Shown in pieces: positions 3,248 to 14,746 of a DNA stretch of 21,032 bases. Source of the stretch: a virus. The notes under the pieces were generated by a model. It was not told the DNA's origin. It did no database searches and was given only the letters and a program-made list of their open reading frames with translations. Location of the stretch: IMG/VR virus record IMGVR_UViG_3300030333_006866, positions 11,653-32,684 of that record; one strand, written 5' to 3'. Position 1 is the first letter of the stretch; every line of letters starts with the position of its first letter. Made by a program: the position numbers and the translations under genes.

Positions 3248-3360
3248 GCTTTACTGTTCCTTCTACGATAACCAGACATTATGTGTTTATATATCCACCA
3301 ACATCTTCCATTATCTGATGACACTAAAGCTGCTTTTTTAAATCTATCTCTTCTTGACAA
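3244..3360 (-). CDS. possible tiny basic protein, 38 aa, TTG start
   Basis: From a TTG with AAGGAA about 10 nt upstream, this frame encodes SRRDRFKKAALVSSDNGRCW followed by WIYKHIMSGYRRRNSKA. It is strongly basic, with a WW pair, as in small nucleic-acid-binding proteins. The frame is open further upstream to 3411 (REFSFANIFIKEYRNL also looks protein-like), where it meets a TAA three codons after an ATG. The gene may therefore have lost its start by mutation or a sequence error. It is the last frame of the - strand operon and its stop overlaps the convergent + strand stop. Confidence 0.35.
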   Translation of the reverse strand: MSRRDRFKKAALVSSDNGRCWWIYKHIMSGYRRRNSKA

Positions 3361-3385
3361 GTTTCTATATTCCTTTATGAATATA

Positions 3386-3713
3386 TTAGCGAACGAGAAC
3401 TCCCTTAAACCTTAATAAGACATGTAAAAATAAAGGATGCGATTCATCCTTGTTGGAATAAAATTTACAACCTTTATCTACAATATTGCTAGGAATTTCT
3501 TTTTCTTCGACCTGCTTATGTGCTTTCCACCAATAGCAGAATCCAAATAAATAAGATTTCTTGTCTTTGCGATATACGCAATTCCAGCAAGATCTATTTT
3601 TTTCTTTTGCGATGTATTCTTGTTTGATGTTTAATAGCTTGTTGTTTTGTAAAATGTCTTTTTTTATCTGAAGTTATATATACAGACATTAATTCATGTG
3701 TTATTACTTTCAT
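3386..3713 (-). pseudogene. small cysteine-rich phage protein broken by a +1 frameshift
   Basis: An ATG at 3713 with a good AAGGAG starts MKVITHELMSVYITSDKKRH then FTKQQAIKHQ. In that frame it stops after about 40 codons, just past an A-run at 3597-3603. One frame over, the sequence continues as EYIAKEKNRSCWNCVYRKDK, then FGFCYWWKAHK, then NIVDKGCKFYSNKDESHPL, ending at 3386. The C-x2-C, F-C and G-C-K cysteines look like a metal-binding site. The span is 328 nt, one base more than 109 codons, so a single extra base explains the break. It probably lies between 3597 and 3665, perhaps in CAAACAAG near 3619-3629. It may be a real decay, an assembly error in an A-run, or a programmed shift. Confidence 0.6.
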
Positions 3714-3729
3714 TTGTTCTCCTTTTTAA

Positions 3730-3918
3730 TAAGGCGCAGCTACATATTATGCGTTTGACTAACCTAACTTAATAGCTGTTTTATTTATAGTTCCCATCTG
3801 AACACCGATGTCGTGTCAGTTTTTATACTGCAACTTGAAGCCAGTCACTACGCCTTAAAAATTTGAGGGAGCCCATAAACGAAGGTAAGTGCTATGGGTG
3901 TGAGAGGTGGACTCCCTC
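3730..3918 (-). ncRNA. structured noncoding RNA candidate N1 (two adjacent closed domains)
   Basis: This gene-free stretch holds two domains. Domain 1 has GAGGGAG (3865-3871) pairing with CTCCCTC (3912-3918) and CCCATA (3872-3877) pairing with TATGGG (3893-3898), stacked on one side. Domain 2 is closed by TAAGGCG (3730-3736) with CGCCTTA (3851-3857), encloses TGACT (3756-3760) with AGTCA (3843-3847), and contains a bulged hairpin at 3798-3819 (CTGAACAC with GTGTCAG). The closing helix ends next to the AAGGAG of the gene starting at 3713, so the fold could control that SD. The strand is inferred from the flanking genes. Domain 1 begins at the stop of the preceding gene and might instead act as a terminator. 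Confidence 0.55.
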
Positions 3919-4205
3919 TAAGATTCTCCGCTAACCTGATCTTCTAATAGTTGATCATTTTCAAACTTAATAGTTTCAATTAAATCACCTCTCTTTGTGC
4001 ATATATCTACTGATATGTAATCATCATGATTATCTACAAAGATAGCATATTTATCATTTGAAACTTTTAGTTTATTTTGCTCTAAATAAGTTATAGCTAA
4101 TTTGAGAGAACTTAAATATTCATATCCATTTATAGTTTCCCCAAATACATCTTTTATTAAGACGTATAACTTCTTCAGATTATGTATAGCGTTATTTCTT
4201 TTCAA
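3918..4205 (-). CDS. hypothetical protein, 95 aa, TTG start
   Basis: I do not recognise this family. The frame begins with TTG inside the 3' end of the nuclease gene (14-nt overlap) and has only a weak GGA upstream, so expression is probably coupled to the nuclease. The protein has a basic N-terminal helix (KRNNAIHNLKKLYVLIKDVF), a middle SLKLAITYLEQNKLKVSNDK segment and an acidic C-terminus. No cysteine pairs or membrane segment are seen. It is the last gene before the structured tract N1. Confidence 0.5.
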   Translation of the reverse strand: MKRNNAIHNLKKLYVLIKDVFGETINGYEYLSSLKLAITYLEQNKLKVSNDKYAIFVDNHDDYISVDICTKRGDLIETIKFENDQLLEDQVSGES

Positions 4206-4554
4206 TTAATTTAATCCAATCATTTAAATCCATTACTACTTTTGGATTTTCTCTGTTCTTCTTTATCACTAATATAGGTGTATGATCTTTTGCATTATCT
4301 TCACATTGTTTAAATGACTTCCAAACATTAAGTTTTTCAACATTTTTACATTCAAACGAATAAGGTATGTAAAGCCTTGCATTAGGGGAAAGGACTATAT
4401 CCTCTCCCGTCATGCCCATAGTTTGTGACTTAATATCGTCTTCTTCAAGCTTAGGATATAAATTGTTTTTTACAATAAATGTTTCTCTAAGTTTGTCTCT
4501 GACAATATTCTGCAATTTTCTTCCTTTAGCTTTGATCGATTTTACATTTGTCAT
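4192..4554 (-). CDS. PD-(D/E)xK nuclease, Holliday-junction-resolvase-like, 120 aa
   Basis: The start is the ATG at 4554, with GGAGG 11 nt upstream and an ATGA overlap with the previous stop; the in-frame ATG at 4572 carries the SD itself and is rejected. The protein begins with a basic KAKGRKLQNIVRDKL helix. It then has QTMGMTGEDIVLSPNAR with Asp52, IPYSFECKNVEKLNVW with Glu68 and Lys70 (the E-x-K signature), then PILVIKKNRENPKVVMD. This order and the GEDIVLSP-A / ECKN motifs match a widespread phage family annotated as Holliday junction resolvase or PDDEXK endonuclease. It probably cleaves branched DNA made during replication and ERF-driven recombination. Confidence 0.8.
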   Translation of the reverse strand: MTNVKSIKAKGRKLQNIVRDKLRETFIVKNNLYPKLEEDDIKSQTMGMTGEDIVLSPNARLYIPYSFECKNVEKLNVWKSFKQCEDNAKDHTPILVIKKNRENPKVVMDLNDWIKLIEKK

Positions 4555-4733
4555 GGCAATAGTTTCCTCCATATAGATAATCCTATTGATACTTCAAATG
4601 GTCCAAATCCAAAATTAAAGGATATATGATCTCCACGTAATATATTATACGATAAAGTGACTGAAAAAACCCACAAAAGAATTAAAGTAACCATAAAGTT
4701 ATTAGATTCATTTGCTGTTTTAATACTAATCAT
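4551..4733 (-). CDS. small single-pass membrane protein, 60 aa
   Basis: The ATG at 4733 has GGAGG 5 nt upstream and overlaps the end of the primase-helicase gene by 8 nt, which makes it a better start than the frame's upstream codon. The protein has one hydrophobic helix at about residues 14-31 (MVTLILLWVFSVTLSY) followed by an aromatic and glycine-rich tail (FNFGFGPFEVSIGLSIW). The family is not recognised. Its position between helicase and nuclease is probably an accident of gene packing. An early phage membrane protein of this type could act in host take-over or superinfection exclusion, but nothing in the sequence proves it. Confidence 0.6.
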   Translation of the reverse strand: MISIKTANESNNFMVTLILLWVFSVTLSYNILRGDHISFNFGFGPFEVSIGLSIWRKLLP

Positions 4734-6501
4734 TACTACCTCCAATCGGAACAAATTGAAAAGTTCTATAATCAAAAGAGAATGTCATCTTGAAATCAGT
4801 TTCATCTCTAGATGCTAATGATTGAATAGTTCTATTATTATTAGATTCTCTTTCTCCTGTAATACCTATGATCTTATCTGCCTTTTGTTCTATAGCTGAA
4901 CTACCTTTAGCACTATGAACAGTTAATGGTCCATATGAAGCACCTTTGCTTATATGAGATATTCCTATAAATATTACATCCATTTGATTTGCAATTTGTT
5001 TTAAACTATTTACTATTACATCCATTTTATTTAATGGATCATTATTATACCTAACCTCTATTGCATCTATAGTGTCTATACATACAACTTGAGGTTGGTT
5101 ATCCGATATTATTTGTTTCATAGAGTCTATATCTGGACTAACAGTCATTACTTTTATATTCTTTACTTGATCAGTTATCTGATGTATAGCAAGTTCATCT
5201 CCACTTTCATATATATCGTGGATTTGCTGTTTAGTCATACTATTAGCAACTTGAAGAAATCTTCTGAAGATTAACCATGCTCCTACCTCTAGTGATAAGT
5301 ATAGTATATTTAAATGTTTTAACTTTACTATCACATTTTGTAGCCATGCTGTTTTTCCAAGTTTAGTATCTCCCAATAGTATTGCTAGTTCTCCTGGTAA
5401 GAATCTATAATCTGTCTTTAATGGATATATATTTTTAAGATTAAAACTATTATTATCCAAATCCATATGTATAAATTCTTTCAATTGATCTGAAAGTTCA
5501 CTTACATTCATTACTTCCATACCATAGTTTTTATGCTTATAAAACTTGCATATTTGATCGCAGAATTCAGCCATTATAACATCATTGCAACTATATCCAT
5601 TATGATCCCATGCATATACATCATCTACTATTTTAAGTATTTCGTTGTGATCTAAAGATTGAACATTATGTGCAGCCATTTTAATTGATCCTTCTTTTGG
5701 AATACCCATTCGTTTCCATCCATTGATCATTCGTAGCAATGTAATATGTCTTCTTCCATCTTTGTCATCATCCCACATTTTCTGTATACATGTGACATTA
5801 GCATTATATTCTGATGTTTTAACTGGTTTTTCTTCTGTTTTGATCTTAGGTGTATCTTCAGCATAATCCTTCCATATTTCGTTATATTCTCCAAAGGGTT
5901 TATGATGATAACCTACTTTATTACTAGATGCATAATCACATATAGTATCATAATCCATTTCCATTAGCATATCAATAGATAAAGGTATTTTATATAATTG
6001 ACTTTTCATATTAACTGTATAGCCAACTCTAATTAATCTACCTTTATCGTATATATTATCTACTTGATTGCCGAAATGTTTATCTATTGTGAGTTTTGCT
6101 TGATAGGGAAGCTCAGTGCTTTCTTGGAGTCCATATAAATTAGGAATATCTATATGAAAACCTCTACCGCTGAACCATATATGGATCCATTCATCTTTTA
6201 CGCCTTGCTCAGATAAATGTTCCACAAAAGATCTAACTTTATGCATTAAATTTGTTCCTATTAGCTTTCCTTTGTCAATATCAAAAGTAATTTTATCAAT
6301 TGCATATGTTCCTTTGTAACTCTTTATTGATCCCTTATCTCTAAAGTGTTCAAATGCAGTATTATCTAATAAGAATAAACTTCTATAAAGCTCTTGATCT
6401 TCTTTAATGTATTTCGTTATATATTCTGGTTGAATAGCATAAGCCCTGTTTGAAACAGAGCCTATTGCTAATTCAATGTATTTTAAAGTATTATTTTCCA
6501 T
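4726..6501 (-). CDS. bifunctional DNA primase-helicase (AEP primase + RecA-fold ATPase), 591 aa
   Basis: The N-terminal half has the three signatures of an archaeo-eukaryotic primase: ITFDID (DxD at residues 74-76), WFSGRGFHIDIP (sxH-type motif II, about 109-120) and RLIRVGYTVNMKS (motif III, about 155-167). A helical PriCT-like segment follows (about 250-300), with a few cysteines (SCNDVIMAEFCDQIC). The C-terminal half is a RecA/DnaB-like ATPase with Walker A GDTKLGKT (377-384), Walker B VVCIDTID (472-479) and a GISHISKG motif near 515. It should lay primers and unwind DNA at the phage fork. The start overlaps the preceding gene by 19 nt. Bacterial-type TOPRIM primase motifs are absent, so the primase is of the PrimPol-like class. 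Confidence 0.85.
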   Translation of the reverse strand: MENNTLKYIELAIGSVSNRAYAIQPEYITKYIKEDQELYRSLFLLDNTAFEHFRDKGSIKSYKGTYAIDKITFDIDKGKLIGTNLMHKVRSFVEHLSEQGVKDEWIHIWFSGRGFHIDIPNLYGLQESTELPYQAKLTIDKHFGNQVDNIYDKGRLIRVGYTVNMKSQLYKIPLSIDMLMEMDYDTICDYASSNKVGYHHKPFGEYNEIWKDYAEDTPKIKTEEKPVKTSEYNANVTCIQKMWDDDKDGRRHITLLRMINGWKRMGIPKEGSIKMAAHNVQSLDHNEILKIVDDVYAWDHNGYSCNDVIMAEFCDQICKFYKHKNYGMEVMNVSELSDQLKEFIHMDLDNNSFNLKNIYPLKTDYRFLPGELAILLGDTKLGKTAWLQNVIVKLKHLNILYLSLEVGAWLIFRRFLQVANSMTKQQIHDIYESGDELAIHQITDQVKNIKVMTVSPDIDSMKQIISDNQPQVVCIDTIDAIEVRYNNDPLNKMDVIVNSLKQIANQMDVIFIGISHISKGASYGPLTVHSAKGSSAIEQKADKIIGITGERESNNNRTIQSLASRDETDFKMTFSFDYRTFQFVPIGGSND

Positions 6502-6752
6502 TCAGATTCTTTAGATTTTGAGTTACTAATTTTCTGTATTTCTTTAATACCTATGTCTATATATTCTTTATCAGACCTTATTAATCTCCATTGTCTATTA
6601 TATGTAGATGGACTATAGATTTTATCAAATTTTTGCCATCCATACTCAACTACATTATGTTGAAATTCATGTGAACGAAAAGTATGTTTTCCTGTTTTTA
6701 TTGAATTTTCTAGATAATTTAAGATTATAGTCTTTGCAGTTTCTTTATGCAC
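6483..6752 (-). CDS. small winged-helix-like protein, 89 aa, GTG start
   Basis: The longest frame starts at a TTG (6791) inside the neighbouring gene. The GTG at 6752 shares a base with the preceding TAG (TAGTG) and has AAGGAA upstream, so I choose it. The protein has a helix (KETAKTIILNYLENSIKTGK), then HTFRSHEFQHNVVEYGWQK, then YSPSTYNRQWRLIRSD, then a short strand and a basic tail. The spacing of helix, helix, recognition-like PSTYNRQWR and strand suggests a winged helix that binds DNA. Between the ssDNA-binding candidate and the primase-helicase it could act as a loader or origin factor. That is inference. Confidence 0.55.
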   Translation of the reverse strand: MHKETAKTIILNYLENSIKTGKHTFRSHEFQHNVVEYGWQKFDKIYSPSTYNRQWRLIRSDKEYIDIGIKEIQKISNSKSKESEWKIIL

Positions 6753-7345
6753 TATGTAGGCATTCCTTGGAACTGATCTTCTTCTTGCCAAGGACTTTCT
6801 TCTTGAGCATTACTCGGAGAAGAGAAGTCTTTTACATAGTTTTTACTTACAGATTCTTTAAATTTAGCTTTAAAATCTGCAATATTACTGCCTTGTCCTT
6901 GAGCTGGACGAGTTTCTTGCCAATCTTTCCATAATGCTCCACCATCACGTTTAGTTTTGGTAGATAAATATGTTAATCTTAGAAACTCTTTACCAACTAA
7001 TAGTCTTTCTGCGTCAGCAGGTAATCTACTAGACTGGGCATTCTTGCCTTTATCTAGTTTTATAGGCATTCCAACTGCGTCAAAGAACATTTTAATTTTA
7101 AATGCTGTTGACCATCCTTCAATAGCTCCACTTACATCATCTTTCTTAAATGATCCACCTATATACATATTAGGTTGGAAATCTTTACCTATATCTAATG
7201 TTAAGTGTATGCTAATATCGTCTGAATAAGTTTGCCATTCTTCCTTAACGCCATACTTAATTTCAGCTGTTGCTATTTTAACTGTATCTACAAAGATATT
7301 ATCTTTTGTTTTAGAACTGGAACTTCCTGAACTTACGAACTCCAT
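6752..7345 (-). CDS. putative single-stranded DNA-binding protein, 197 aa
   Basis: The ATG at 7345 has a strong AAGGAGG and lies 1 nt after the ERF stop; longer versions of the frame run into that gene. The protein starts with a Ser-rich segment, followed by beta-type sequence (NIFVDTVKIATAEIKYGVKE, SIHLTLDIGKDFQPNMYIGG). The C-terminus is flexible, Gln/Ser-rich and acidic (SSPSNAQEESPWQEEDQF). That acidic tail and the position between an ERF annealase and a primase-helicase are typical of phage ssDNA-binding proteins, whose tails recruit partners. I do not see a textbook OB-fold signature, so the call rests mainly on context and tail. Confidence 0.6.
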   Translation of the reverse strand: MEFVSSGSSSSKTKDNIFVDTVKIATAEIKYGVKEEWQTYSDDISIHLTLDIGKDFQPNMYIGGSFKKDDVSGAIEGWSTAFKIKMFFDAVGMPIKLDKGKNAQSSRLPADAERLLVGKEFLRLTYLSTKTKRDGGALWKDWQETRPAQGQGSNIADFKAKFKESVSKNYVKDFSSPSNAQEESPWQEEDQFQGMPT

Positions 7346-7346
7346 A

Positions 7347-7805
7347 TTACCTACCTCCTTGGTTAACTTTTTGTGGTTGTGATGCTGCATTACCATCATC
7401 ATCTGTTTGTGCTATACCGCATATTGATGCTAGTCCATATCTACGACCATAAGTATTTAATGATCCTATAGCTTGAGCATTTGCACCTTTAGGCATTGGT
7501 AATGCTAATTCAGATGATAACCATTCTCCTGAAGAATGTATTAGTTTTGTTACTACCATAAATACACCATTTTTAAACCTATTACCTTGAACGAATGCTA
7601 TTTGATGTTTAGATAATACCTCTCTGCAACTTTCTATGACTGTAAATAAGTCTGCATAGTTACTTTTGAAAAATGGATTTTTTGAGTTATTCTTAGCACC
7701 TGATATTTCCATTTGAGCTTTTGATAGTGCTAATGCTATTTTCGCAATTGATCTGGACTGATCCTCACAACTACGTCTGTCTGTTATTGCTTGATTTTCT
7801 TCCAT
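7347..7805 (-). CDS. erf: ERF-family single-strand annealing protein, 152 aa
   Basis: AAGGAGG stands 6 nt before the ATG. The sequence carries the ERF signature in order: helix SIAKIALALSKAQMEISGAK, NPFFKSNYADLFTVIESCRE, LSKHQIAFVQ, VTKLIHSSGEWLSSELALPM and QAIGSLNTYGRRYGLASICG ending in TDDDGNA (about residue 135-141). ERF proteins anneal complementary single strands and promote phage recombination and genome circularisation. At 152 aa it is short for the family, essentially the core without a long C-terminal extension. Its gene is followed after 1 nt by the ssDNA-binding candidate, a common partner. It lies directly downstream of the large structured tract N2. Confidence 0.9.
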   Translation of the reverse strand: MEENQAITDRRSCEDQSRSIAKIALALSKAQMEISGAKNNSKNPFFKSNYADLFTVIESCREVLSKHQIAFVQGNRFKNGVFMVVTKLIHSSGEWLSSELALPMPKGANAQAIGSLNTYGRRYGLASICGIAQTDDDGNAASQPQKVNQGGR

Positions 7806-7864
7806 TCTACCTCCTTCGTAGGGCTTTTAATTTATAAACTTTACGATAAAAATACTAGAAAAAA

Positions 7865-8300
7865 AGAAGATACTCTCGTGAAAATATTTACTCAATATTT
7901 ATCTTTCACACGTCTGCTACTTCTGATAAATAATTTCTTTATATCAGAGAGTATCTTCTCTTTATTAATGTAGTCAATGCAACTGTAACCCTTCGTCCAC
8001 GGGACTTGCCCATGAGGCTTCGGCTGGGCTTATTAAGGAAGCAGGTCCAACACGTTGCTTTTAGTTAGATGTCAGGATATCCACGCTACACTACTCCCTT
8101 TTAGCTTAGTTAATACAGCGCCATACAGGTTCTCTTAGAGTTCTGGTTTGTCCGACTCCGTGACTGACATGACTACATTAAATTTATACAAGCTTTTTTT
8201 TCGTTTAATAGTAGTGCTTTTGGGTTCTAGACATATTACTAATATTAACCAAAAGTTCCTGGAATAAACTTAGTGCAACTTCTCAGGACTGCTACTAAAC
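7865..8300 (-). ncRNA. large structured noncoding RNA candidate N2 (three adjacent domains, about 436 nt)
   Basis: The 514-nt gap between ERF and DUF6915 has no gene but holds three closed domains end to end. Domain A (8203-8300) is a three-way junction: GTTTAATAGTAG (8203-8214) with CTACTAAAC (8292-8300) encloses 8217-8226/8247-8255 and 8254-8261/8284-8290. Domain B (7965-8181) is closed by a perfect 12-bp helix (7965-7976 with 8170-8181). It encloses 7979-7986/8050-8058, hairpin 8008-8029, 8069-8075/8164-8170 and hairpin 8084-8093/8111-8120. Domain C (7865-7959) has a 13-bp closing helix and two inner hairpins. A U-rich tract follows on the - strand, so domain C may also terminate transcription. 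The 8084-8120 helix has three G-U pairs only on the - strand. Confidence 0.7.
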
Positions 8301-8319
8301 TAGTTGCATACTTGTAATT

Positions 8320-8670
8320 TTACATCAGATTCATTTTCTTTAAAGTATTCTTCTTGGTACTTGCCATCCAAGGTTTTGGTTTAATTTCTTTAAGCCAATC
8401 TTGAACTGTAGGAATAAAGCCTAGATCCTCTCTTATATGTTGTTCTGCTATAGAACGTACTGGTATTATTTTACCATCAGAGTTCTTTATTGTTATTCCA
8501 ATCTGTTCTTCACACATTTTAATACCTAATGTATGATGTCTTAAAGCACGATGTCTTATATCTCCATAATGATCTTTAGTTTGATCAAACCAATCATGTA
8601 TGTGCCAATAATCATCTTCTATACCACCAAATAGCTTTACACTTGATTTGCAATGATTAAATGACTTCAT
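8320..8670 (-). CDS. DUF6915-like protein, 116 aa
   Basis: The start overlaps the preceding stop (ATGA). The protein shows HIHDWFDQTKDHYGDIRHRA, then LRHHTLGIKMCEEQIGITI, then IIPVRSIAEQHIREDLGFIP followed by TVQDWLKEIKPKPWM. The order HDWxDxxK, HRALRHHxxGI, GxxIPVRxIAEQHxxEDLGxIPT, DWLxxIxPxPWM is how I remember the DUF6915 family of phage and mobile-element proteins, which has no assigned reaction. The conserved His and Asp residues could bind a metal ion, but a catalytic role is not established. It forms a coupled pair with the DUF6878-like gene upstream. Confidence 0.65.
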   Translation of the reverse strand: MKSFNHCKSSVKLFGGIEDDYWHIHDWFDQTKDHYGDIRHRALRHHTLGIKMCEEQIGITIKNSDGKIIPVRSIAEQHIREDLGFIPTVQDWLKEIKPKPWMASTKKNTLKKMNLM

Positions 8671-9224
8671 CTTTCTTGCAATTCCGAGTTAAAGGTTTGT
8701 TCTATTTTATTTCCTGACATATTATATGTAGTGGTTATTTCATTATATGATTGTACATTTTGCTGTCCTTCAATCTTTATAGTTCCTTTATTCAAGTCCC
8801 ATATTACTTCGCCTTGTCCACCTTCATTATTATACCAATCATAATCTATCATATCAGCTAATACATATTGCAAGTCATCATTACTAGTAAGAAGATCTTG
8901 ATAGTTTCTAGAGAATTCCTTAAATATTTTATGAACTTCTCTTTGATTCCTAGTCATATCTTTCCATTCATCAAAGTTTTCTTCTCTATTATGATTCCAA
9001 GCTATACTTTCGTATGTATTTGGATAGTATCCATTTTCATCTTTAGTTTCCAAGTCTATTTTACCTTTCCATCCTTCTGCATGAAAACATTCTCCACTAT
9101 CACCGCATCCTTCGTACCATACTCTAATATATTTGTAACCTTTTTCAAGGTATATTTTCGATAATATTTTCAATGCTTCTAATCTATTTTTAGTCTTTTT
9201 TTCATAAAGTTCATTGTAGTTCAT
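8667..9224 (-). CDS. DUF6878-like protein, 185 aa
   Basis: The ATG at 9224 has AGGAGG 6 nt upstream and overlaps the previous stop (ATGA); the longer frame to 9248 places the SD inside the gene and is rejected. The recognisable parts are YIRVWYEGCGDSGECFHAEG near residue 32-51 and DYDWYNNEGGQGEVIWDLNK near residue 126-145, the paired GDSG and NNEGGxGEV blocks that I associate with the DUF6878 family. No function is known to me. The gene sits with DUF6915-like and another unknown gene as an overlapping three-gene unit bracketed by the structured tracts N2 and N3. Confidence 0.6.
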   Translation of the reverse strand: MNYNELYEKKTKNRLEALKILSKIYLEKGYKYIRVWYEGCGDSGECFHAEGWKGKIDLETKDENGYYPNTYESIAWNHNREENFDEWKDMTRNQREVHKIFKEFSRNYQDLLTSNDDLQYVLADMIDYDWYNNEGGQGEVIWDLNKGTIKIEGQQNVQSYNEITTTYNMSGNKIEQTFNSELQER

Positions 9225-9655
9225 TTTATCCTCCTGATTAATTTCCAATCACCTTCTCTAACTATTTTTTGATATACTTTTTCTATTACAGTATATTCGT
9301 TTAGTTCACCATCTTCCCACAAATCTTCTTGTGGCACTTCTTCCCAATGATAAGATTGATCTTGCCAATTCATATCGTTAGATTTAAAGTGTTTTGACCT
9401 TACTGTACTTAACACAGTATTGAATAAATTGTTAATATATAATACTGCTTCATCTATATCTTTACATTCTTTGCTTTTCTTATGATCGTAAGCTTCATCA
9501 TTATCTTTAATCCAATGTTTATGTATATCTACATATATTGGATCATCTCCATCTAGATAGAACTCGTATTCTTTTCCATCGATAATCCCAACACCTGCTA
9601 TATTCTTATTTTTTAAATCATATATATTCAATCGTTTTAATGATCTTTTTTCCAA
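9221..9655 (-). CDS. hypothetical protein, 144 aa, TTG start
   Basis: The frame can be read from an ATG at 9736, but the segment 9680-9733 is an inverted repeat with perfect 10-bp arms and that ATG has no SD. The TTG at 9655 has AAAGGAG 6 nt upstream, so I start there. The protein begins EKRSLKRLNIYDLKNKNIAG, continues with VGIIDGKEYEFYLDGDDPIY and has an acidic, Trp-rich second half (NWQDQSYHWEEVPQEDLWED). The family is not recognised. The stop overlaps the DUF6878-like start. Confidence 0.55.
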   Translation of the reverse strand: MEKRSLKRLNIYDLKNKNIAGVGIIDGKEYEFYLDGDDPIYVDIHKHWIKDNDEAYDHKKSKECKDIDEAVLYINNLFNTVLSTVRSKHFKSNDMNWQDQSYHWEEVPQEDLWEDGELNEYTVIEKVYQKIVREGDWKLIRRIK

Positions 9656-9679
9656 TTTATCTCCTTTATTTAAATCTTT

Positions 9680-10114
9680 GAAGCAGTATCTGTTATTTAC
9701 AGAGCCAATAGTAGTGATCAGCCATACTGCTTCCATGCATATGTAGGTATAAGGATTGTTATCTAGTTGGCTACAGAGTGATCATCTGCCGATACCAATG
9801 CATATCATCCGTACCTCTTCATTCCTTTGTTTCAGAGTTGGACTAAGTTTATTAAATTTATGAGAGAGACCACGCTTAACTAGCACGCTAGATACGAATA
9901 CCTTGTGTTCTAGTATATTAACGAACGGTGGTTTTAGCCGTAACTCTCTCAATTGTATGAGAGCCTCACATATTCCTTTGCCTTACAAGTAAACAGGTTT
10001 TACATCTTACGAATACCATTCCTCTTGTCAAGGACTTATTTTCCCTGTAGATGACTGGCCAAATTGGAAATATGTCATCTTTACCATACAGGAGGACCAG
10101 TTATTGGCTCTCAT
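9680..10114 (-). ncRNA. large structured noncoding RNA candidate N3 (four adjacent domains, about 435 nt)
   Basis: The gap between the 10131 gene and the TTG at 9655 contains four closed domains in a row. They are 9957-9965 with 10106-10114 (ATGAGAGCC/GGCTCTCAT), 9861-9868 with 9944-9951 (TGAGAGAG/CTCTCTCA), 9735-9740 and 9746-9750 with 9792-9796 and 9798-9803, and 9680-9689 with 9724-9733 (GAAGCAGTAT/ATACTGCTTC). Inside the first, CCTGT and AGATGAC (10044-10055) pair with GTCATCT and ACAGG (10074-10092) over an inner CCAAATTGG hairpin. Nearly every base between 9680 and 10114 is inside a domain. The strand is inferred from the surrounding genes. No tRNA, riboswitch or intron core was recognised. 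Confidence 0.7.
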
Positions 10115-10130
10115 TAGAGTATCCTACCTC

Positions 10131-10418
10131 TTAATTTACTTTTCTAAGCATATATAAGGGAACGTCCCACTTTCGATCCTCAACCATTACTATAGCTCTA
10201 GTTCTTTTTACTTTTTCTATTCGTCCTTCTTCTAATTGAGAAGTTCCTAGAACTACAACTTTGTCTCCCTTAATTAATTTATACTTATTTTCAGATCCAA
10301 GAGACCTTATCTTACCTCTAAGCATTTCTTTGATCTGTTTAATTTCATTAATGTCATCTACATCATTGATAAGTTTCTGAATTGTCCATAATCTTGTTTC
10401 ATTTTCAAAATTAGTCAT
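10131..10418 (-). CDS. small KOW/SH3-like protein, 95 aa
   Basis: The ATG at 10418 overlaps the previous stop (ATGA). AAGGAG lies directly against the start codon, closer than usual, so initiation may rely on re-initiation. The N-terminal half is helical (TIQKLINDVDDINEIKQIKE), the C-terminal half beta-rich (YKLIKGDKVVVLGTSQLEEG then RIEKVKRTRAIVMVEDRKWD). The GDKVVVLG...GRIEKVKRTRAIVMV pattern resembles a KOW or SH3-like barrel used by RNA- or ribosome-binding proteins. It is encoded just upstream of the structured tract N3, so RNA binding would be attractive, but that is inference. Confidence 0.55.
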   Translation of the reverse strand: MTNFENETRLWTIQKLINDVDDINEIKQIKEMLRGKIRSLGSENKYKLIKGDKVVVLGTSQLEEGRIEKVKRTRAIVMVEDRKWDVPLYMLRKVN

Positions 10419-10642
10419 TTCATCTCCTTAATTTGTATTATCATTTTATTAGGGTTTTTAGGTATCGTTCCTTGTGGACCTCCTTGCTTAAAACCTGGAA
10501 ATAGCTTTATATATAGCTTTTTTCCTGATTTTAACTCAATAGTCCCTTGAAACCTATGATGCTTATTAACCCATATATCTTCTTTGGTTCTTTTTAAGTG
10601 ACTTAAATATTTTCTGGATTTATTAAGATAAAACTTACACAT
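10415..10642 (-). CDS. small basic hypothetical protein, 75 aa
   Basis: The ATG at 10642 has AGGA 6 nt upstream and overlaps the end of the zinc-ribbon gene; the GTG at 10666 is less well supported. The protein is strongly basic (KFYLNKSRKYLSHLKRTKED), with a middle RFQGTIELKSGKKLYIKLFP and a Gly/Pro-rich loop (GFKQGGPQGTIPKNPNK) before a final beta strand. A small nucleic-acid-binding role would fit the charge, but the family is not recognised. Confidence 0.55.
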   Translation of the reverse strand: MCKFYLNKSRKYLSHLKRTKEDIWVNKHHRFQGTIELKSGKKLYIKLFPGFKQGGPQGTIPKNPNKMIIQIKEMK

Positions 10643-10787
10643 TACTATCCTGTGATAATTTATCACATTCTTTACATATAGAATGCATATATCCTTGCAG
10701 TTTTATTATTTTTTTCACTCTATCGTCACTAGGTGTGAAAATAACACAGCAAGAAAGACATTTTAGCTTAATATCGGATACTATCAA
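10635..10787 (-). CDS. tiny zinc-ribbon protein, 50 aa, TTG start
   Basis: This frame starts with TTG inside TTGA, overlapping the DUF2958 stop, with AAAGGA 6 nt upstream. It encodes cysteines at 10, 13 and 14 (KCLSCCVIF) and at 38 and 41 (SICKECDKLS), the two-knuckle spacing of a small zinc ribbon. It overlaps the next gene by 8 nt. It is one of several tiny Cys-pair genes in the early region, probably a nucleic-acid- or protein-binding host take-over factor. Confidence 0.65.
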   Translation of the reverse strand: MIVSDIKLKCLSCCVIFTPSDDRVKKIIKLQGYMHSICKECDKLSQDSNV

Positions 10788-11074
10788 TCTAGATCCTTTA
10801 TTTTTGTAGGTTTGAAATACATATCTCTTTCTATTCTTAAACCTTTAAAATTAAAAGATTTAAGTTCAAATAAAGAGAAATATCCAAATTCATTTACGAA
10901 TCCTTTAACATAACCAAAAAATCTGTCCTCTCCATCATATTCTATTCCATACCAAGTCCAATTATTGATTGGGTTAAAGTATTTTACATATGCTACTTTG
11001 TCTTCCATAGGAATATTTTCAGTATCATATAGCTTAGGTATTTTCTTTTCTATGTCTTTAGTCATTAATTTCAT
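10784..11074 (-). CDS. DUF2958 family protein, 96 aa
   Basis: The protein starts MKLMTKDIEKKIPKLYDTEN, continues with KVAYVKYFNPINNWTWYGIE then YDGEDRFFGYVKGFVNEFGY and FSLFELKSF, and ends with IERDMYFKPT. The K-L-x-T-x-x-x-x-x-x-P-x-L-Y start, the KYFxPxxNWTWYxxExDGEDxFFG core, the GYFSLxEL block and the IERDxYFxP end are the hallmarks of DUF2958, common on plasmids and phages and of unknown function. Length fits the family. It is upstream of and coupled to the 50-aa zinc-ribbon gene. Confidence 0.85.
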   Translation of the reverse strand: MKLMTKDIEKKIPKLYDTENIPMEDKVAYVKYFNPINNWTWYGIEYDGEDRFFGYVKGFVNEFGYFSLFELKSFNFKGLRIERDMYFKPTKIKDLD

Positions 11075-11078
11075 AATC

Positions 11079-11252
11079 TTACCCTATTTGTACTATTTTA
11101 TCGCATATTACACATGAGTAATGATGCTTTTCAATGGAATATTTATTTCCATCCCTATCTTTATATATTTTTCCGCTAAAGTCGTCATGGAAATTTGCAT
11201 CATCTGTTTCGCAATTTCCATCACACCAAATGTCCCATTCATTATCACTCAT
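11079..11252 (-). CDS. tiny Cys-pair protein, 57 aa
   Basis: The ATG at 11252 overlaps the end of the upstream gene by 8 nt. The product has C10 and C14 (DIWCDGNCETDD) and C47 and C50 (YSCVICDKIV), with an acidic linker between, consistent with a single zinc-binding ribbon. No SD is obvious except the coding end of the upstream gene, so coupling is likely. Function unknown. Confidence 0.6.
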   Translation of the reverse strand: MSDNEWDIWCDGNCETDDANFHDDFSGKIYKDRDGNKYSIEKHHYSCVICDKIVQIG

Positions 11253-11547
11253 CTTCAACTCCTAAAACAGGTAATATTTCTTCTCCGTTTTTGGTAAGAC
11301 ATGTCAAAACGCCTCCGTCATTACCTTCATCGTCCATTTGAGCGATAACTCTTGTCCCATTATCTAATATAAAGGTAATAGGTTTTTTATGCCACATATA
11401 TTCGTTACATTCTTCATCTTTCATGTATTCTACACGTAATATTTTCCTTCCAAGTAGCATATTTTGGGCTAATTTCTCCCAATATGCATTTCTTTGGATT
11501 GGATCTCTGAAATCGTATTCTTTTCCATTTAATGTAGCTAGACTCAT
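11245..11547 (-). CDS. hypothetical protein, 100 aa
   Basis: AAAGGAG precedes the ATG at 11547. The protein has an N-terminal ATLNGKEYDFRDPIQRNAYW segment. A beta-rich part follows: RKILRVEYMKDEECNEYMWH, then ITFILDNGTRVIAQMDDEGN, then DGGVLTCLT. The V-x-Y-M-x-x-E-E, W-x-x-x-P-I-x-x-x-L-D-x-G-x-x-x-x-x-x-x-D-E-G-N-D-G-G pattern recurs, as far as I recall, in short unknown phage proteins. No function can be assigned. It is the first gene after the structured element at 11581-11699. Confidence 0.6.
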   Translation of the reverse strand: MSLATLNGKEYDFRDPIQRNAYWEKLAQNMLLGRKILRVEYMKDEECNEYMWHKKPITFILDNGTRVIAQMDDEGNDGGVLTCLTKNGEEILPVLGVEDE

Positions 11548-11580
11548 TATACTCTCCTTTTAAAATTCAAAAAAAAAGAA

Positions 11581-11699
11581 AAAGGTAAAAGTATAACCTA
11601 CTCGAATTACTGCAGTTAGACTTTCGATGACTAGTAGCTTACCATTTCGCTACTAAGTAGCTATATTGGGCTCCCTATCTTTATTATACTCTTACCTTT
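11581..11699 (-). ncRNA. structured element N4 with a 16-bp closing helix and U-rich 3' end
   Basis: The arms at 11581-11596 and 11684-11699 pair over 16 positions, with the single odd pair being G-U on the - strand. Inside are four copies of one hexamer or its complement: CCTACT 11597-11602, AGTAGC 11633-11638, GCTACT 11649-11654 and AGTAGC 11656-11661. These allow mutually exclusive hairpins, as in a switch or attenuator. On the - strand the closing helix runs into a T-rich tract, then into the SD of the 11547 gene. It could be a terminator with a regulated interior. The strand call rests on the G-U pair and the tail. Confidence 0.6.
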
Positions 11700-11725
11700 T
11701 ATTGATTTAGGGGTGTAATTAACCC

Positions 11726-11944
11726 CTATTTTTCTTTATCTGGATTCAACATTCCTGATATAACTTCATTTTGAAAATCTATAGTAGATTTAACATTGTT
11801 TGCGAAACTTACACTATCTTCTGTATATCTGATATTGTTAATTTCAACCATATGTTCCACAATGTCCCAAACAAGTTGTCTATCTCTACTACCTAATCCT
11901 CTATTAGCTTTCTTGATTCTGTCAAAGAATTCCTTTTCTCCCAT
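11726..11944 (-). CDS. hypothetical protein, 72 aa
   Basis: The start shares a base with the preceding stop (TAATG). The protein is helical and mixed-charge (EKEFFDRIKKANRGLGSRDR, then QLVWDIVEHMVEINNIRYTE). There is no cysteine or membrane segment. The family is not recognised; it belongs to the chain of overlapping tiny early genes. Confidence 0.5.
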   Translation of the reverse strand: MGEKEFFDRIKKANRGLGSRDRQLVWDIVEHMVEINNIRYTEDSVSFANNVKSTIDFQNEVISGMLNPDKEK

Positions 11945-12150
11945 TATTTACCTCCCATAGTTCTTAATCTATTCTTAGCATATAGAACTTTTGAAGATAA
12001 TAATTGTTGATCTCTACTGTATTTAGATCTACTTTTAAATATTAATTGTATCGATCTGTTTTCTTTGATGAATTTTCTTAACTCATATTTACTCATGTAT
12101 CGAATTTCATCGAATCTGTTAGGCAAAATGCCTGGTAGTGTCATTTGCAT
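11944..12150 (-). CDS. hypothetical basic protein, 68 aa
   Basis: AGGAGG lies 10 nt before the ATG at 12150; a second ATG at 12144 forms an ATGA overlap with the previous stop and is equally possible. The protein opens with a Pro/Leu segment and becomes basic (KYELRKFIKENRSIQLIFKS, RSKYSRDQQLLSSKVLYAKN, RLRTMGGK). It is probably helical and may bind nucleic acid, on charge alone. Confidence 0.5.
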   Translation of the reverse strand: MQMTLPGILPNRFDEIRYMSKYELRKFIKENRSIQLIFKSRSKYSRDQQLLSSKVLYAKNRLRTMGGK

Positions 12151-12383
12151 GATTTCTTACCTCCTATGTATTCTTCTCTTGTTACTCCCATGTAATCCCA
12201 AATGTGTATTTGTCCTAACAATACTTCTTTTAGGTGTGTTATGTCAAGTATATTGCAATTATCTGCATCGTATCCTAGATCATATCCACCTTGTTCTAAA
12301 AAGACCTGGTAAGTTTCTATCTTTATCAGCTCTTTTTCTTCTAATAATTCCTGATTTTTATGTAATAATTCATCATATTTCAT
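12141..12383 (-). CDS. hypothetical protein, 80 aa
   Basis: The start shares a base with the preceding stop (TAATG) and CAGGAG lies upstream in the coding end of that gene. It has an N-terminal coiled-coil-like helix (YDELLHKNQELLEEKELIKI) followed by GGYDLGYDADNCNILDITHL and HIWDYMGVTREEYIGG. The family is not recognised. The DYMGVTREEY ending looks like a short helix-turn-helix or substrate loop, but this is weak. Confidence 0.5.
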   Translation of the reverse strand: MKYDELLHKNQELLEEKELIKIETYQVFLEQGGYDLGYDADNCNILDITHLKEVLLGQIHIWDYMGVTREEYIGGKKSCK

Positions 12384-12544
12384 TACTTTTTCTCCTGTTT
12401 AATGTAACTAAAGTTCTTTAATTGTTTATATTCTCCGTAGCAATAATCACACATCCATATAGATCCGTCTTCAAATAAATCTATAGCTTCTCCATAATCT
12501 ATATCTAGATTTCTATCGCAATCTTCGCATTTTACAATACTCAT
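12383..12544 (-). CDS. tiny zinc-ribbon protein, 53 aa
   Basis: The start codon shares a base with the previous stop. The product has VKCEDCDRNL (C6, C9) and WMCDYCYGEYK (C32, C35), two classic C-x2-C knuckles 22 residues apart, in an acidic context. It ends with a basic tail (YIKQEKK). Its stop overlaps the next start. It probably folds around one zinc ion; the partner is unknown. Confidence 0.65.
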   Translation of the reverse strand: MSIVKCEDCDRNLDIDYGEAIDLFEDGSIWMCDYCYGEYKQLKNFSYIKQEKK

Positions 12545-12696
12545 TAGTATGTCCCTGCTTCATGTGTGTTTTCTGACATCCATAAAGCCCAACAGTCCCA
12601 TTCTGCACATAAATATTCATACCTACAGTAATAGTTTTCATAAGCTGGACCTGATATTTCTTCTCCGCATTGAATGCACTTTTCTTTTTCTGGCAT
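12544..12696 (-). CDS. tiny cysteine-rich protein, 50 aa
   Basis: AAAGGAG lies 5-6 nt before the ATG at 12696. The product has EKCIQCGEEI (C7, C10), then C24, C30 and C35 in an aromatic stretch (YYCRYEYLCAEWDCWALW). Five cysteines in 50 residues suggest a zinc-binding ribbon with a non-standard second half. It is the first gene after the repeat-bearing intergenic stretch 12697-12937 and is coupled to the second zinc-ribbon gene. Confidence 0.6.
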   Translation of the reverse strand: MPEKEKCIQCGEEISGPAYENYYCRYEYLCAEWDCWALWMSENTHEAGTY

Positions 12697-12759
12697 TTGA
12701 TCTCCTTTACTTAATGATCATATATATCAGACAAAAAGAAAGGGAATAAGTAGGAAAAA

Positions 12760-12843
12760 CCCGCTTTTTTATATCAGGCGCGCTTTTTTATCCGTCCCGT
12801 TTTTTTAGATCTACGATATGTTATGTCCGTCGAATTTTTTTTA
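12760..12843 (-). repeat. four degenerate T-tract/GC direct repeats (iteron-like)
   Basis: Four units share a GC-rich head and a T-run. They are CCCGCTTTTTTATAT at 12760-12774, GCGCGCTTTTTTA at 12778-12790, CCCGTTTTTTTA at 12796-12807, and GTCCGTCGAA plus an eight-T run ending at 12843. T-runs start at 12765, 12784, 12800 and 12835, so the spacing is 19, 16 and 35. A fifth copy (CCGCTTTTTTT) is at 13382-13392. They could be binding sites of an early regulator or part of an origin. They do not look like coding sequence. Confidence 0.45.
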
Positions 12844-12883
12844 TATACCCTTTAATCTTAATGATTTATGAAATAAATCAGAA

Positions 12884-12929
12884 AAAAAGAAAGTGTCCAC
12901 CACAATTAAGTAGTAAACACTTTCTTTTT
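12884..12929 (-). terminator. bidirectional intrinsic terminator-like hairpin
   Basis: AAAAAGAAAGTGT (12884-12896) and ACACTTTCTTTTT (12917-12929) form a perfect 13-bp helix with a 20-nt loop, right after the stop of the 12938-13264 gene. A-rich and T-rich arms place a U-tract at the 3' side on either strand. It probably ends - strand transcripts of that gene. Confidence 0.65.
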
Positions 12930-12937
12930 AGAACTTA

Positions 12938-13264
12938 CTAAAATGGAACTTCTGACACTTTCGCAAGTTTAGTTAAGAAGTCTTTTTCGACCTCTATTTC
13001 TTCCATTTTGGTATCTACATCTCCTCTGTAGAGGTTGTAAGATTTTCCACTTGCTGATAATCGTAAATTACCTGCAAATGAAAACTTATTTTGAAGATAT
13101 TTCTGCACTAATTCGTGTTTTTCTTCATTTACCTCTATTTCTTCAAATAAAGATTGTTCGGTAGGCATAGAGATGAAGCTAGTTTCTTCTGTTATTTTAT
13201 CTTGTTTCGTATTCTCATCTTCTTTTGTTTCTCCAATAATCCAAGCTACATATTTAAGTTTCAT
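12938..13264 (-). CDS. hypothetical acidic protein, 108 aa
   Basis: The ATG at 13264 with GAGG 6 nt upstream is a better start than the GTG at 13270. The N-terminus (KLKYVAWIIGETKEDENTKQ) has a short beta segment followed by a Glu/Thr-rich linker. The second half contains LVQKYLQNKFSFAGNLRLSA, SGKSYNLYRGDVDTKMEEIE and a final helix. The family is not recognised. The gene stands alone, with a hairpin before it and a terminator after it, so it may be a separately regulated early gene. Confidence 0.55.
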   Translation of the reverse strand: MKLKYVAWIIGETKEDENTKQDKITEETSFISMPTEQSLFEEIEVNEEKHELVQKYLQNKFSFAGNLRLSASGKSYNLYRGDVDTKMEEIEVEKDFLTKLAKVSEVPF

Positions 13265-13295
13265 AAACACCTCGTTTTCGTTTTAGTTATATTAA

Positions 13296-13376
13296 CATAA
13301 ATAAAGAAAACACATAAGCTAGGTTTAAATAAAGGTTCTCCCCTGGTAAACAGAAAGAGAACATATATGCTAGGTT
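13296..13376 (-). promoter_or_regulatory. regulatory segment: direct repeat, hairpin and conserved TTTTCTTTAT element
   Basis: GCTAGGTT occurs at 13318-13325 and again at 13369-13376, flanking a hairpin (13335-13340 with 13357-13362). On the - strand these are followed by GTTTTCTTTATTTATG (13296-13311) and then a TATAAC-like box before the SD of the 13264 gene. The same 16-nt element recurs before two other small genes. Promoter or terminator-plus-promoter function is inferred. Confidence 0.4.
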
Positions 13377-13404
13377 AGTAACCGCTTTTTTTGTAATTGT
13401 TTAA

Positions 13405-13436
13405 AGCATAGGCTACTATTTCTAGTAACCCATGCT
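13405..13436 (-). terminator. 13-bp hairpin between small early genes
   Basis: The arms 13405-13417 and 13424-13436 pair at 13 positions around a 6-nt loop. Two pairs are G-U on the - strand and A-C on the + strand, so the helix is complete only in - strand RNA. It lies 10 nt after the stop of the 13446-13703 gene. The 3' side lacks a long U-tract, so it may be an RNA-processing or protective hairpin and not a strict terminator. Confidence 0.5.
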
Positions 13437-13445
13437 ATATTTCTT

Positions 13446-13703
13446 TTATTCTTCAACCTTACCATCTAAAGCTTTAACTCTGTCTACTGTTTCTTTTAGA
13501 GCGTCTGCATTTAAATTACCAAGTGTATCATCAGTTATAGGTGTATCATATGTTAAATCATAACTATTAACTTTCATTGGTTTATTAGTAGTATTATCCC
13601 AAACGCCATTCCATTTTAATACTGCTAATTCTAAGCCTCGGCTAAATTCATTACATATAATACTAACTCCATAACCATTTTTAAATAATGTTATATCACT
13701 CAT
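13446..13703 (-). CDS. hypothetical protein, 85 aa
   Basis: The ATG at 13703 has GAGAGG about 7 nt upstream. Longer frames to 13784 begin inside a hairpin and are rejected. The product reads SDITLFKNGYGVSIICNEFS, then RGLELAVLKWNGVWDNTTNK, then SYDLTYDTPITDDTLGNLNA and an acidic end. It looks like a compact beta-rich protein; the family is not recognised. It is flanked by hairpins on both sides. Confidence 0.6.
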   Translation of the reverse strand: MSDITLFKNGYGVSIICNEFSRGLELAVLKWNGVWDNTTNKPMKVNSYDLTYDTPITDDTLGNLNADALKETVDRVKALDGKVEE

Positions 13704-13750
13704 TTTGCTACCTCTCTTTTTTATAGTTTCGTAAATAAAGAAAACATAGA

Positions 13751-13787
13751 ATAATACAGACCACTCATTACAAGTAGTCTGCATTAT
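13751..13787 (-). promoter_or_regulatory. 15-bp hairpin upstream of the 13703 gene
   Basis: The arms 13751-13765 and 13773-13787 pair over all 15 positions in - strand RNA (two pairs are G-U) with a 7-nt loop. On the - strand it is followed after 5 nt by GTTTTCTTTATTTACG (13730-13745) and then TATAAA and the SD. It may be a terminator of the upstream unit followed by a new promoter. Confidence 0.5.
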
Positions 13788-13806
13788 CTGTTATTGCATT
13801 GTAATT

Positions 13807-13965
13807 CTACCACATAAAATGATCATCTACACATTCACTACACATATTGTGACCTGTATATTCTCTAGTCACGATATGTTTGTCCGTATTGATCATATGA
13901 CAACAATAGGCACATTCTACCCAATTGTTCATATAAGACTTTACTACTACATCTAATTTATGCAT
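13807..13965 (-). CDS. tiny zinc-ribbon protein, 52 aa
   Basis: AAAGGAG lies 6 nt before the ATG at 13965; the longer frame starts inside a hairpin and is rejected. It has VECAYCCHMI (C18, C21, C22) and NMCSECVDDH (C42, C45), plus histidines, fitting a zinc ribbon. It stands alone between two hairpin elements, so it may have its own promoter. Confidence 0.65.
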   Translation of the reverse strand: MHKLDVVVKSYMNNWVECAYCCHMINTDKHIVTREYTGHNMCSECVDDHFMW

Positions 13966-14006
13966 AACTGCTCCTTTATTTTTATAGCTATCATATGAAA
14001 AGAAAG

Positions 14007-14041
14007 AGCCTGTACTACACATTGAATGCATAGCACAGGCT
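14007..14041 (-). terminator. 16-bp hairpin with 3-nt loop and U-rich tail
   Basis: On the - strand, 35 nt fold back with 16 consecutive pairs, three of them G-U, around a TCA loop. The 3' side runs into CTTTCTTTTC. This is an excellent intrinsic terminator on the - strand, between the 14103-14312 and 13807-13965 genes. On the + strand three pairs are lost and the U-tail is absent. Confidence 0.7.
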
Positions 14042-14102
14042 TGTAAGGAGCAAATTTAATTGCTGAGATAGGATATGAGGTAGGAACATATATAGAGAAA
14101 GC

Positions 14103-14312
14103 TTATGATTGAGACCATTGTTCGTAGATATCCTTTAGCTCTTCAGCAGTATATCTATTTACATATTGCTTATCTCTATAATCTATTGTTATTTGAGTAT
14201 CTTCATAGCCTTGCTCATATGCTTTCCATAATCTACCAAGGTTAAATAACTCAAAGAACTTATTGTTAATTCTACCAACAAACCTGCCCATTAAATAAAA
14301 TAACTTAGACAT
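14103..14312 (-). CDS. first early-region gene, hypothetical protein, 69 aa
   Basis: GAGAGG precedes the ATG at 14312. The product begins SKLFYLMGRFVGRINNKFFE, continues LFNLGRLWKAYEQGYEDTQI and ends ELKDIYEQWSQS. The N-terminus is amphipathic and basic, the C-terminus acidic. The family is not recognised. As the gene nearest the divergent control region it is probably the first early transcript product. The element GTTTTCTTTATATATG lies at 14342-14357 upstream. Confidence 0.6.
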   Translation of the reverse strand: MSKLFYLMGRFVGRINNKFFELFNLGRLWKAYEQGYEDTQITIDYRDKQYVNRYTAEELKDIYEQWSQS

Positions 14313-14746
14313 ATTATTACCTCTCTGTTTAATTACAATAACATATATAAAGAAAACATTTTCAACTAGATAGATACAAAGTAGACTAACCTTACTCTCA
14401 TGTCAGTGTGTGGATTTTAGTAATGTGTGTACATTCAGGTTATATAAAGTGATAGGTTACAGTCGTTCACACAGAGCTACACCGAACACTCTGTCAGGGT
14501 TATCGTGTCCATATGTGTGCTCTACGACACGATAAGGGGGACGAGGTGAGGTGTCTCATGTGTGGGTGGGGGAACATTACAGTTGTGTGGTGAGTTTAGG
14601 TTGAGTGATCGTAATGTAACTAGCTCAACTCAACCTAATCGAACCGCACCAACCTAGAATGTAGGGGGGTGACTATAACCTATCTCTCTCACTCACAATC
14701 TAAAACTATTTTTTGATTTTATACTCTCCTTTGTGTATATTACATT
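14313..14746. promoter_or_regulatory. 434-nt divergent control region with strong inverted repeats
   Basis: There is no gene here. It is richer in GC and in TGTG runs than the flanks. Inverted repeats include 14471-14476/14489-14494 (6 bp), 14500-14509/14526-14535 (perfect 10 bp, TTATCGTGTC arms) and 14596-14606/14628-14638 (perfect 11 bp, TTAGGTTGAGT arms). ACATTAC at 14574-14580 also matches GTAATGT at 14611-14617, crossing the 11-bp pair. A G-rich stretch at 14536-14572 has several G runs. It lies between early and late operons next to terminase, so it is the place to expect early and late promoters, an origin or a packaging site. Confidence 0.6.
14713..14741 (+). promoter_or_regulatory. 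sigma70-like promoter of the late operon, apparently leaderless
   Basis: TTGATT (14713-14718) and TATATT (14736-14741) are 17 nt apart, ideal for a sigma70-type promoter. A start site 6-7 nt downstream of the -10 box falls on or next to the ATG at 14747. There is no SD between, so the first message may be leaderless. Core consensus match is good but not perfect. Confidence 0.45.

Follow-up and report, generated by a model that had tools for sequence, protein, structure and literature searches.

Structured early RNAs of a viral genome and its relatives: conserved intercistronic scaffolds carrying exchangeable hairpin modules

The window analysed here, 21,032 nucleotides of the virus record IMGVR_UViG_3300030333_006866 (G000:C1:11653-32684, the record having 32,684 bases in total), carries late genes on the + strand and early genes on the - strand, the latter running from about 14312 down to 3918. 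It holds at least three conserved intercistronic scaffolds, designated RNA-A, RNA-F and RNA-B, and a fourth, RNA-D, is known from relatives. The scaffolds are conserved and structured on the sense strand, and hairpin modules are exchanged between them in one orientation. Judging from the sequences, they most likely function as intercistronic mRNA elements with an exchangeable tip. To the explanation as a whole, which combines RNA structure of early transcripts with cis-acting intercistronic scaffolds and recombining, exchangeable hairpin tips, we assign a probability of about 0.4. The contigs compared (designated by L numbers) are mostly metagenomic fragments, the carriers are related to each other, and several thresholds were used without correction.

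RNA-A occupies positions 9954-10117 of the - strand (model R1, E = 2.9e-10) and consists of the closing stem GAGAGCC/GGCTCTC, the core AAYAACTGGTCCT .. AAGGAATATGTGA and inner modules. Its 3' pattern was found in at least 119 viral stretches. Marine phage contigs contain at least 108 distinct forms of it; these 108 instances passed the frame test and were deduplicated by sequence (89 unique flank pairs), and their number is a lower bound. The model recognised RNA-A in 24 of 34 records, most of which had been chosen for carrying a pattern match. A relative of the window's portal was present in 25 of 34 records of a second, largely overlapping set, and because the best match per record is only 28-46% identical, the carriers of RNA-A constitute a wide group. 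A genome scan gave five matches, about four being expected by chance according to our own rough estimate; the model score was good for L222 and poor for L221, L223 and L224. L222, which carries both RNA-A and RNA-B, was assigned to a Flavobacteriales metagenome-assembled genome; this may be a binning error, the contig itself coming from a phage.

Covariation was evaluated in alignment A3, which includes the 38 of the 108 RNA-A sequences that have the standard start and a short inner part. In this alignment 92.5% of the cells pair (83.2 when shuffled) and nine pairs vary on both sides. There are 72 compensatory cells versus 31.6 in shuffled alignments, a value reached in none of 500 shuffles, and slid partners gave 13-31. 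The inner stem UCCU/AGGA is invariant and therefore uninformative in this respect. Since stem positions 8-10 were touched neither by the search pattern nor by the frame test, which took G-U as paired and possibly under-counted A-C at positions 1-7, the G-U claim for RNA-A is based on them. There, 216 of 267 pairs are Watson-Crick (about 115 expected), 24 are G-U and none is A-C (7.1 expected). Pairing fades outward, pairs 11-12 being above expectation with 7 G-U and 8 A-C.

RNA-A-like variant scaffolds with an altered core (e.g., ..GAGTCGATAACTCGTCC..GGAACACGTATGGCTCTC) and the same modules occur in L157 (near 9370-9420), L093 (near 654) and L090 (near 8290). One RNA-A module, in L107 near 1663-1800, includes GGGTTCGAATCCC, which resembles a tRNA T-arm; a variant form is located elsewhere, in L202 (2097-2198). 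Neither ARAGORN nor Rfam calls the L107 module a tRNA.

BLAST comparison of the window with its relatives gave conserved noncoding blocks at 7957-8187 and 9803-9850. Several noncoding elements are repeated in the relatives, and the four used here are RNA-A, RNA-B, RNA-D and RNA-F. RNA-F (8184-8312, - strand) is available in 27 distinct copies, 24 of them with a complete module, and both its frame and its slot stems covary. The frame stem reads AGCA/TACTAT in 17 cases and GGCA/TACCAT in 7, while slot-closing pairs 1-5 of the 24 modules include five G-U and no A-C. The RNA-F module of the window (8218-8254, - strand) is also found in RNA-F of L239, and by eye it is similar to the RNA-A module of L152 and to the RNA-D module of L217. 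RNA-B (7969-8177, - strand) is conserved in L066, L067 and L068 and represented by 11 distinct frames; slot-closing pairs 1-3 are all standard in its 11 modules, with both sides varying at pairs 2 and 3. Its module in the window (7992-8020, - strand) recurs within the RNA-A copies of L104 and L175 and within RNA-F of L248. Covariation of the slot-closing pairs is thus seen in RNA-B, and it is seen in RNA-D too (19 modules). The block at 9803-9850 (- strand), named RNA-C, is 96-98% identical in L068 and L076. In L098 (2700-3750), inspection by eye shows consecutive stem-closed noncoding elements, RNA-A and RNA-D included, behind tRNA-Met.

Exchange of modules is evident within RNA-A already: 42 pairs of copies share a module (at least 28 nt, at least 85% identity) though both flanks are less than 60% alike, and 24 pairs with flanks at least 85% alike have no such module in common. 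L103 and L128 both contain, with 100% identity, the 63-nt hairpin module nested in RNA-A of the window (10032-10094, - strand), even though their flanks are less than 60% alike to those of the window. Between scaffolds, 155 modules were compared (102 from RNA-A, 24 from RNA-F, 18 from RNA-D and 11 from RNA-B). This gave 21 matching pairs, all 21 on the same strand, and none in five shuffled repeats; the pairs share members, and the independent events are fewer. The RNA-D module of L066, a contig from a single cell, is common to RNA-A of two metagenome contigs. By eye, and outside these counts, the RNA-D module of L098 contains an extra hairpin that is absent in L211. A count of modules outside RNA-A (57 of 98) was inflated by unmasked duplicate loci and alignment rows and was dropped.

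The preliminary description of this DNA had noticed that all non-Watson-Crick positions of five helices in the early region were G-U on the - strand, and had taken this as a sign of selection for RNA structure in early transcripts. An unbiased helix scan, which covered the window and took 3250-14400 as its early region, showed in that region an excess of - strand G-U over A-C at all six settings, with p values uncorrected for the number of settings. The ratios were 12:0 when helices had to be compact and no shorter than 12 bp (p = 0.0005), 10:0 (0.002), 9:0 (0.004), 24:8 (0.007), 24:10 for looser helices (0.024) and 36:20 (0.044). As A-C mismatches appear at three of the six settings, the bias is real yet not exclusive. 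The sense strands of nine related early regions gave 78:16, 75:39, 44:21, 181:93 and 92:32 at five settings, the p values for these relatives overstating the significance because some of the regions are near-identical to each other. Ten shuffles yielded 182:232, therefore the null does not favour G-U. In late regions the ratios of 13:8 and 41:32 show no significant bias, and in the late right arm of the window the excess is opposite to that expected (10:4 in favour of the - strand, with small numbers and at a single setting). The G-U bias is limited to the early side and becomes weaker as the definition of a helix is loosened.

Selection for RNA structure in the - strand early transcripts, as proposed initially, is supported by the covariation, by the sense orientation of RNA-A discussed below and by the 24 G-U and no A-C at its outer stem pairs 8-10. 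The initial reasoning needs one restriction. The bias speaks against a double-stranded palindrome only, since G-T wobbles form in hairpins of single-stranded DNA (ssDNA) too, and it is the orientation data that favour RNA over ssDNA. The scaffold RNAs lying between the long hairpins, which are the unusual objects of this region, were not listed in the preliminary description.

RNA-A is sense to the neighbouring genes in 101 of 108 instances, antisense in 2 and unclear in 5. These figures replace a count based on open reading frames (ORFs; upstream 88 sense, 10 antisense and 10 none, downstream 82, 13 and 13), which suffered from doubtful antisense ORFs and had 23 instances 'inside'. The median distance is 22 nt from the previous stop and 28.5 nt to the next start. 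A downstream gene was found for 94 of the 108 instances, and these genes belong to 45 families, so RNA-A is not a leader specific to a single family. It cannot be regarded as an intrinsic terminator either, a T-run following the stem in just 7 of 108 instances. Sense orientation, short gaps, 45 downstream families and the rarity of the T-run together make RNA-A a generic intercistronic element.

We propose the following explanation. The G-U bias marks secondary structure of the RNAs transcribed leftward in the early region of an uncultured marine phage, whose intercistronic gaps hold the scaffolds besides the terminator-like hairpins. The scaffolds share a common plan. A stem closes each of them, their core is conserved, and one slot or several, each shut by a covarying stem, are filled with different hairpin modules, which recur across phages, intergenic gaps and scaffolds and always keep the same orientation. 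RNA-A lies about 22 nt past a stop and 28 nt before a start, and the genes next to it come from dozens of families unrelated to each other. For this reason the scaffolds could be expected to act in cis in polycistronic mRNA, where they would most likely serve in processing or stabilising the message between cistrons, by analogy with the intercistronic RNase III hairpins of phage T7. The apical modules would be exchangeable because, as we suggest, the core does the work. The exchange itself presumably proceeds by DNA recombination between short shared frame sequences, and in some carriers an annealing protein of the phage, of which the Erf-like protein of this genome is an example, is a candidate helper.

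Several observations weigh against this proposal. An Erf family member is present in 14 of 29 records, the genome studied here included, but no relative was found in the other 15, so Erf cannot be the general agent of exchange. When the orientation of RNA-A was judged instead from the longest open frame within the following 400 nt, 74 instances were sense and 24 antisense, a weaker majority than 101 to 2. The recurring modules are well conserved, which a neutral tip does not need, though recent transfer could explain it. Finally, the pairing data taken alone would also fit a role of the hairpins in ssDNA.

It is possible, although we consider it doubtful, that the modules are selfish nestable hairpins settling in the loops of tolerant RNAs, similarly to the intervening sequences of 23S rRNA and the GC clusters of yeast mitochondria, the scaffolds being the largest such elements. 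One module nested in another, the position of the scaffolds in gaps between unrelated genes and the recurrence of modules at high identity in unrelated contexts are all in line with this. However, free insertion of hairpins would give both orientations, and a strict single orientation (21 of 21) was observed instead. Besides, no Y1 transposase, as would be expected for REP or IS200/IS605-type elements, was found in 28 carrier records (it could act from elsewhere), no reverse transcriptase indicative of retroelement or group II mobility was found in 29, and the RNA-A core is nearly invariant in phages with distant portals. Rather less credible to us is the idea that the modules are ligands. As folded and variable tips, they would bind host proteins, nucleases or defence sensors, or act as decoys for these; swapping would be the source of diversity, and the scaffold would hold the tips out of the mRNA. 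The 24 pairs with the same flanks and different modules are what could be expected if variety were favoured, and the module pool is common to several scaffolds; on the other hand, no binding partner is known, and neither an Rfam family nor a tRNA was recognised among the modules examined.

The scaffolds might also belong, as domains, to long and ornate noncoding RNAs similar to GOLLD and not be separate intercistronic elements. Of 50 carrier records, 8 contain GOLLD, 5 of them with a score over the cut-off, the elements of L098 appear by eye to stand in series behind tRNA-Met and GOLLD, and RNA-F adjoins RNA-B in the window. This we find improbable, as neither the window nor its record matches GOLLD, no module was found to be shared with the six GOLLD loci searched and most RNA-A copies occupy short gaps between two genes. 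An artefactual origin of the swaps, by wrong joining of contigs at the constant blocks of 20-30 nt, deserves mention given that the sequences come largely from metagenome contigs and that short repeats make up the constant blocks, yet it is very hard to reconcile with the pairing. The RNA-A flanks pair with each other although the swapped module lies between them (216 of 267 Watson-Crick at pairs 8-10) and thus belong together, so that contigs would have to be misjoined twice to imitate a swap. In addition, the slot stems pair each module's own ends, and L066, a single-cell contig, has an RNA-D module that also occurs in RNA-A of two contigs from metagenomes.

The five helices that drew attention to the region are all present, and each of their 13 non-Watson-Crick pairs, terminal pairs included, is G-U on the - strand; the 11 sites counted earlier differ from this number by the omission of some terminal pairs. 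When folding was judged against 200 shuffles, four of the helices proved strong on the - strand (z from -3.46 to -7.70) and weaker on the + strand, namely 11581-11699, 13405-13436, 13751-13787 and 14007-14041. The fifth, at 8084-8120 (- strand), is unsupported as a native helix (z = -0.43, with 67 of 200 shuffles folding equally well). Of 11 distinct related sequences, 9 keep its 5' strand but lack the partner TAGTGTAGCG, which the window and L199 do have. For both reasons its three G-U sites should be dropped.

The - strand element at 11581-11699 (z = -3.46) has a 17-bp closing stem followed by a T-run; BLAST revealed no relatives of it beyond a T-rich match. A 14-bp hairpin is located at 13405-13436 (- strand, z = -7.12) and was not flagged by the terminator scan. 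The same scan did detect, all on the - strand, a 20-bp hairpin with three G-U pairs at 12884-12929 (z = -9.13), which had been overlooked in the preliminary description, a hairpin at 13750-13788 (z = -7.70 for 13751-13787) and a 16-bp hairpin at 14007-14041 (z = -6.37). These three long hairpins have a stem and a T-rich tail on the transcribed strand and look like ordinary intrinsic terminators, as predicted from sequence; the scan found 7 sites in the region versus 3.6 in shuffles. In the place corresponding to 14007-14041, L067 carries (at 2735) a hairpin whose seven outermost pairs are the same and whose interior differs. A TTTTCTTTATTTATGTTAATATAA-like T-rich stretch recurs on the - strand after several hairpins (by eye, near 12720, 13290, 13730 and 14330) and may be a phage promoter. 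Sites resembling sigma-70 promoters number 55 versus 64.3 in shuffles, in a scan for this promoter type only.

The early gene set includes a primase-helicase and the Erf-like ssDNA annealing protein (7347-7805, - strand; phrog_2324, E = 1.5e-37); the names of the late genes, portal and terminase, are our own reading. Megablast against 50,697 phage records gave no match to the window, cultured relatives detectable by protein are remote only, and no convincing RNA match was found in cultured phages. A single-sequence scan with the helicase found no relative. Uncultured relatives were found, and one of them, L066 (L225 is the same contig), is part of the single-cell genome Prochlorococcus sp. AG-436-M02, which suggests, without proving it, Prochlorococcus as the host.

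The noncoding stretch between the divergent gene blocks of the window (14320-14740) may be the site of divergent promoters; its first 160-180 bases are about 74% conserved in L067, L068 and L076. Just upstream of the Erf-like gene (7845-7962, - strand), the stem AGAAGATACTCTC/GAGAGTATCTTCT encloses a structured middle and is followed by a T-run, with no relative given by BLAST. A conserved noncoding element is located upstream of the Erf-like gene in L066 (5704-5900), L067 (9180-9370) and L068 (9245-9430) and is absent at the corresponding position of the window.

None of the scaffolds matches an Rfam family. Rfam 15 has no match to the window above the gathering score (three are far below it, with E up to 1), and ARAGORN and Rfam report no tRNA or tmRNA in it. 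Searches of open-access papers (PMC12286853 and PMC2864571 among others) and of Rfam 15 gave no description of these RNAs. GOLLD (RF02032), a large phage RNA described as having no known function (PMC12286853), matches neither the window nor the rest of its record. The five carrier records mentioned above exceed its gathering score, and in L098 (799-1219) and L212 (848-1252) it lies near tRNA-Met; a search of six GOLLD loci found no modules in common. Like GOLLD and other large ornate phage RNAs, the scaffolds are structured phage RNAs without a known function, near tRNAs and in some of the same genomes; unlike it, RNA-A, RNA-B, RNA-D and RNA-F are small, intercistronic and equipped with exchangeable modules.

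Early mRNA of T7 carries RNase III sites, irregular hairpins between co-transcribed early genes. RNA-A appears to share their intercistronic position, whereas its apical hairpins come from a swapped pool, and we know of no such pool for the T7 sites. In T4-type phages, PeSL cassettes are mobile stem-loops between small early genes that carry an early promoter and a terminator and move genes. The modules described here are likewise mobile stem-loop units between small early phage genes, but they move between RNA scaffolds, and a T-run is rare in RNA-A. Integron attC sites are imperfect hairpins, closely spaced between genes, in which the ends are conserved and the tip varies; in contrast to them, our modules enter and leave the hairpin itself. 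Double-hairpin elements are mobile hairpins, too, and like GC clusters they insert in both orientations, whereas all 21 matches between our scaffolds are on the same strand. Mobile hairpins set in the loops of other RNAs are represented by rRNA intervening sequences (PMC4990558) and the GC clusters of yeast mitochondria (PMC4478555). The present modules resemble these three kinds of elements in their location and nesting, and differ in that they occur in phages and fill several conserved scaffolds from a single pool, always in one orientation.

As to method, wobble pairs distributed unevenly between the strands of a single genome led to RNAs that were later confirmed by comparison. We consider it a real possibility that marine phages possess a combinatorial RNA system, in which a few conserved intercistronic scaffolds with standard slots draw on a shared pool of modules that recombination moves, in constant orientation, between scaffolds, genes and phages. 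Such an exchange of cassettes among RNA domains would diversify what early RNAs bind or resist. If this is true, RNA would evolve here by swapping whole hairpins between the standard sockets of different RNAs and not by drift within a fold, and to our knowledge no other case of such swapping has been described. The constant sockets and variable plugs would then be ready-made test pieces for what phage early RNAs bind, RNA families missing from Rfam 15 would be supplied, and the finding would also bear on the function of GOLLD-type phage RNAs, which reside in some of the same genomes.

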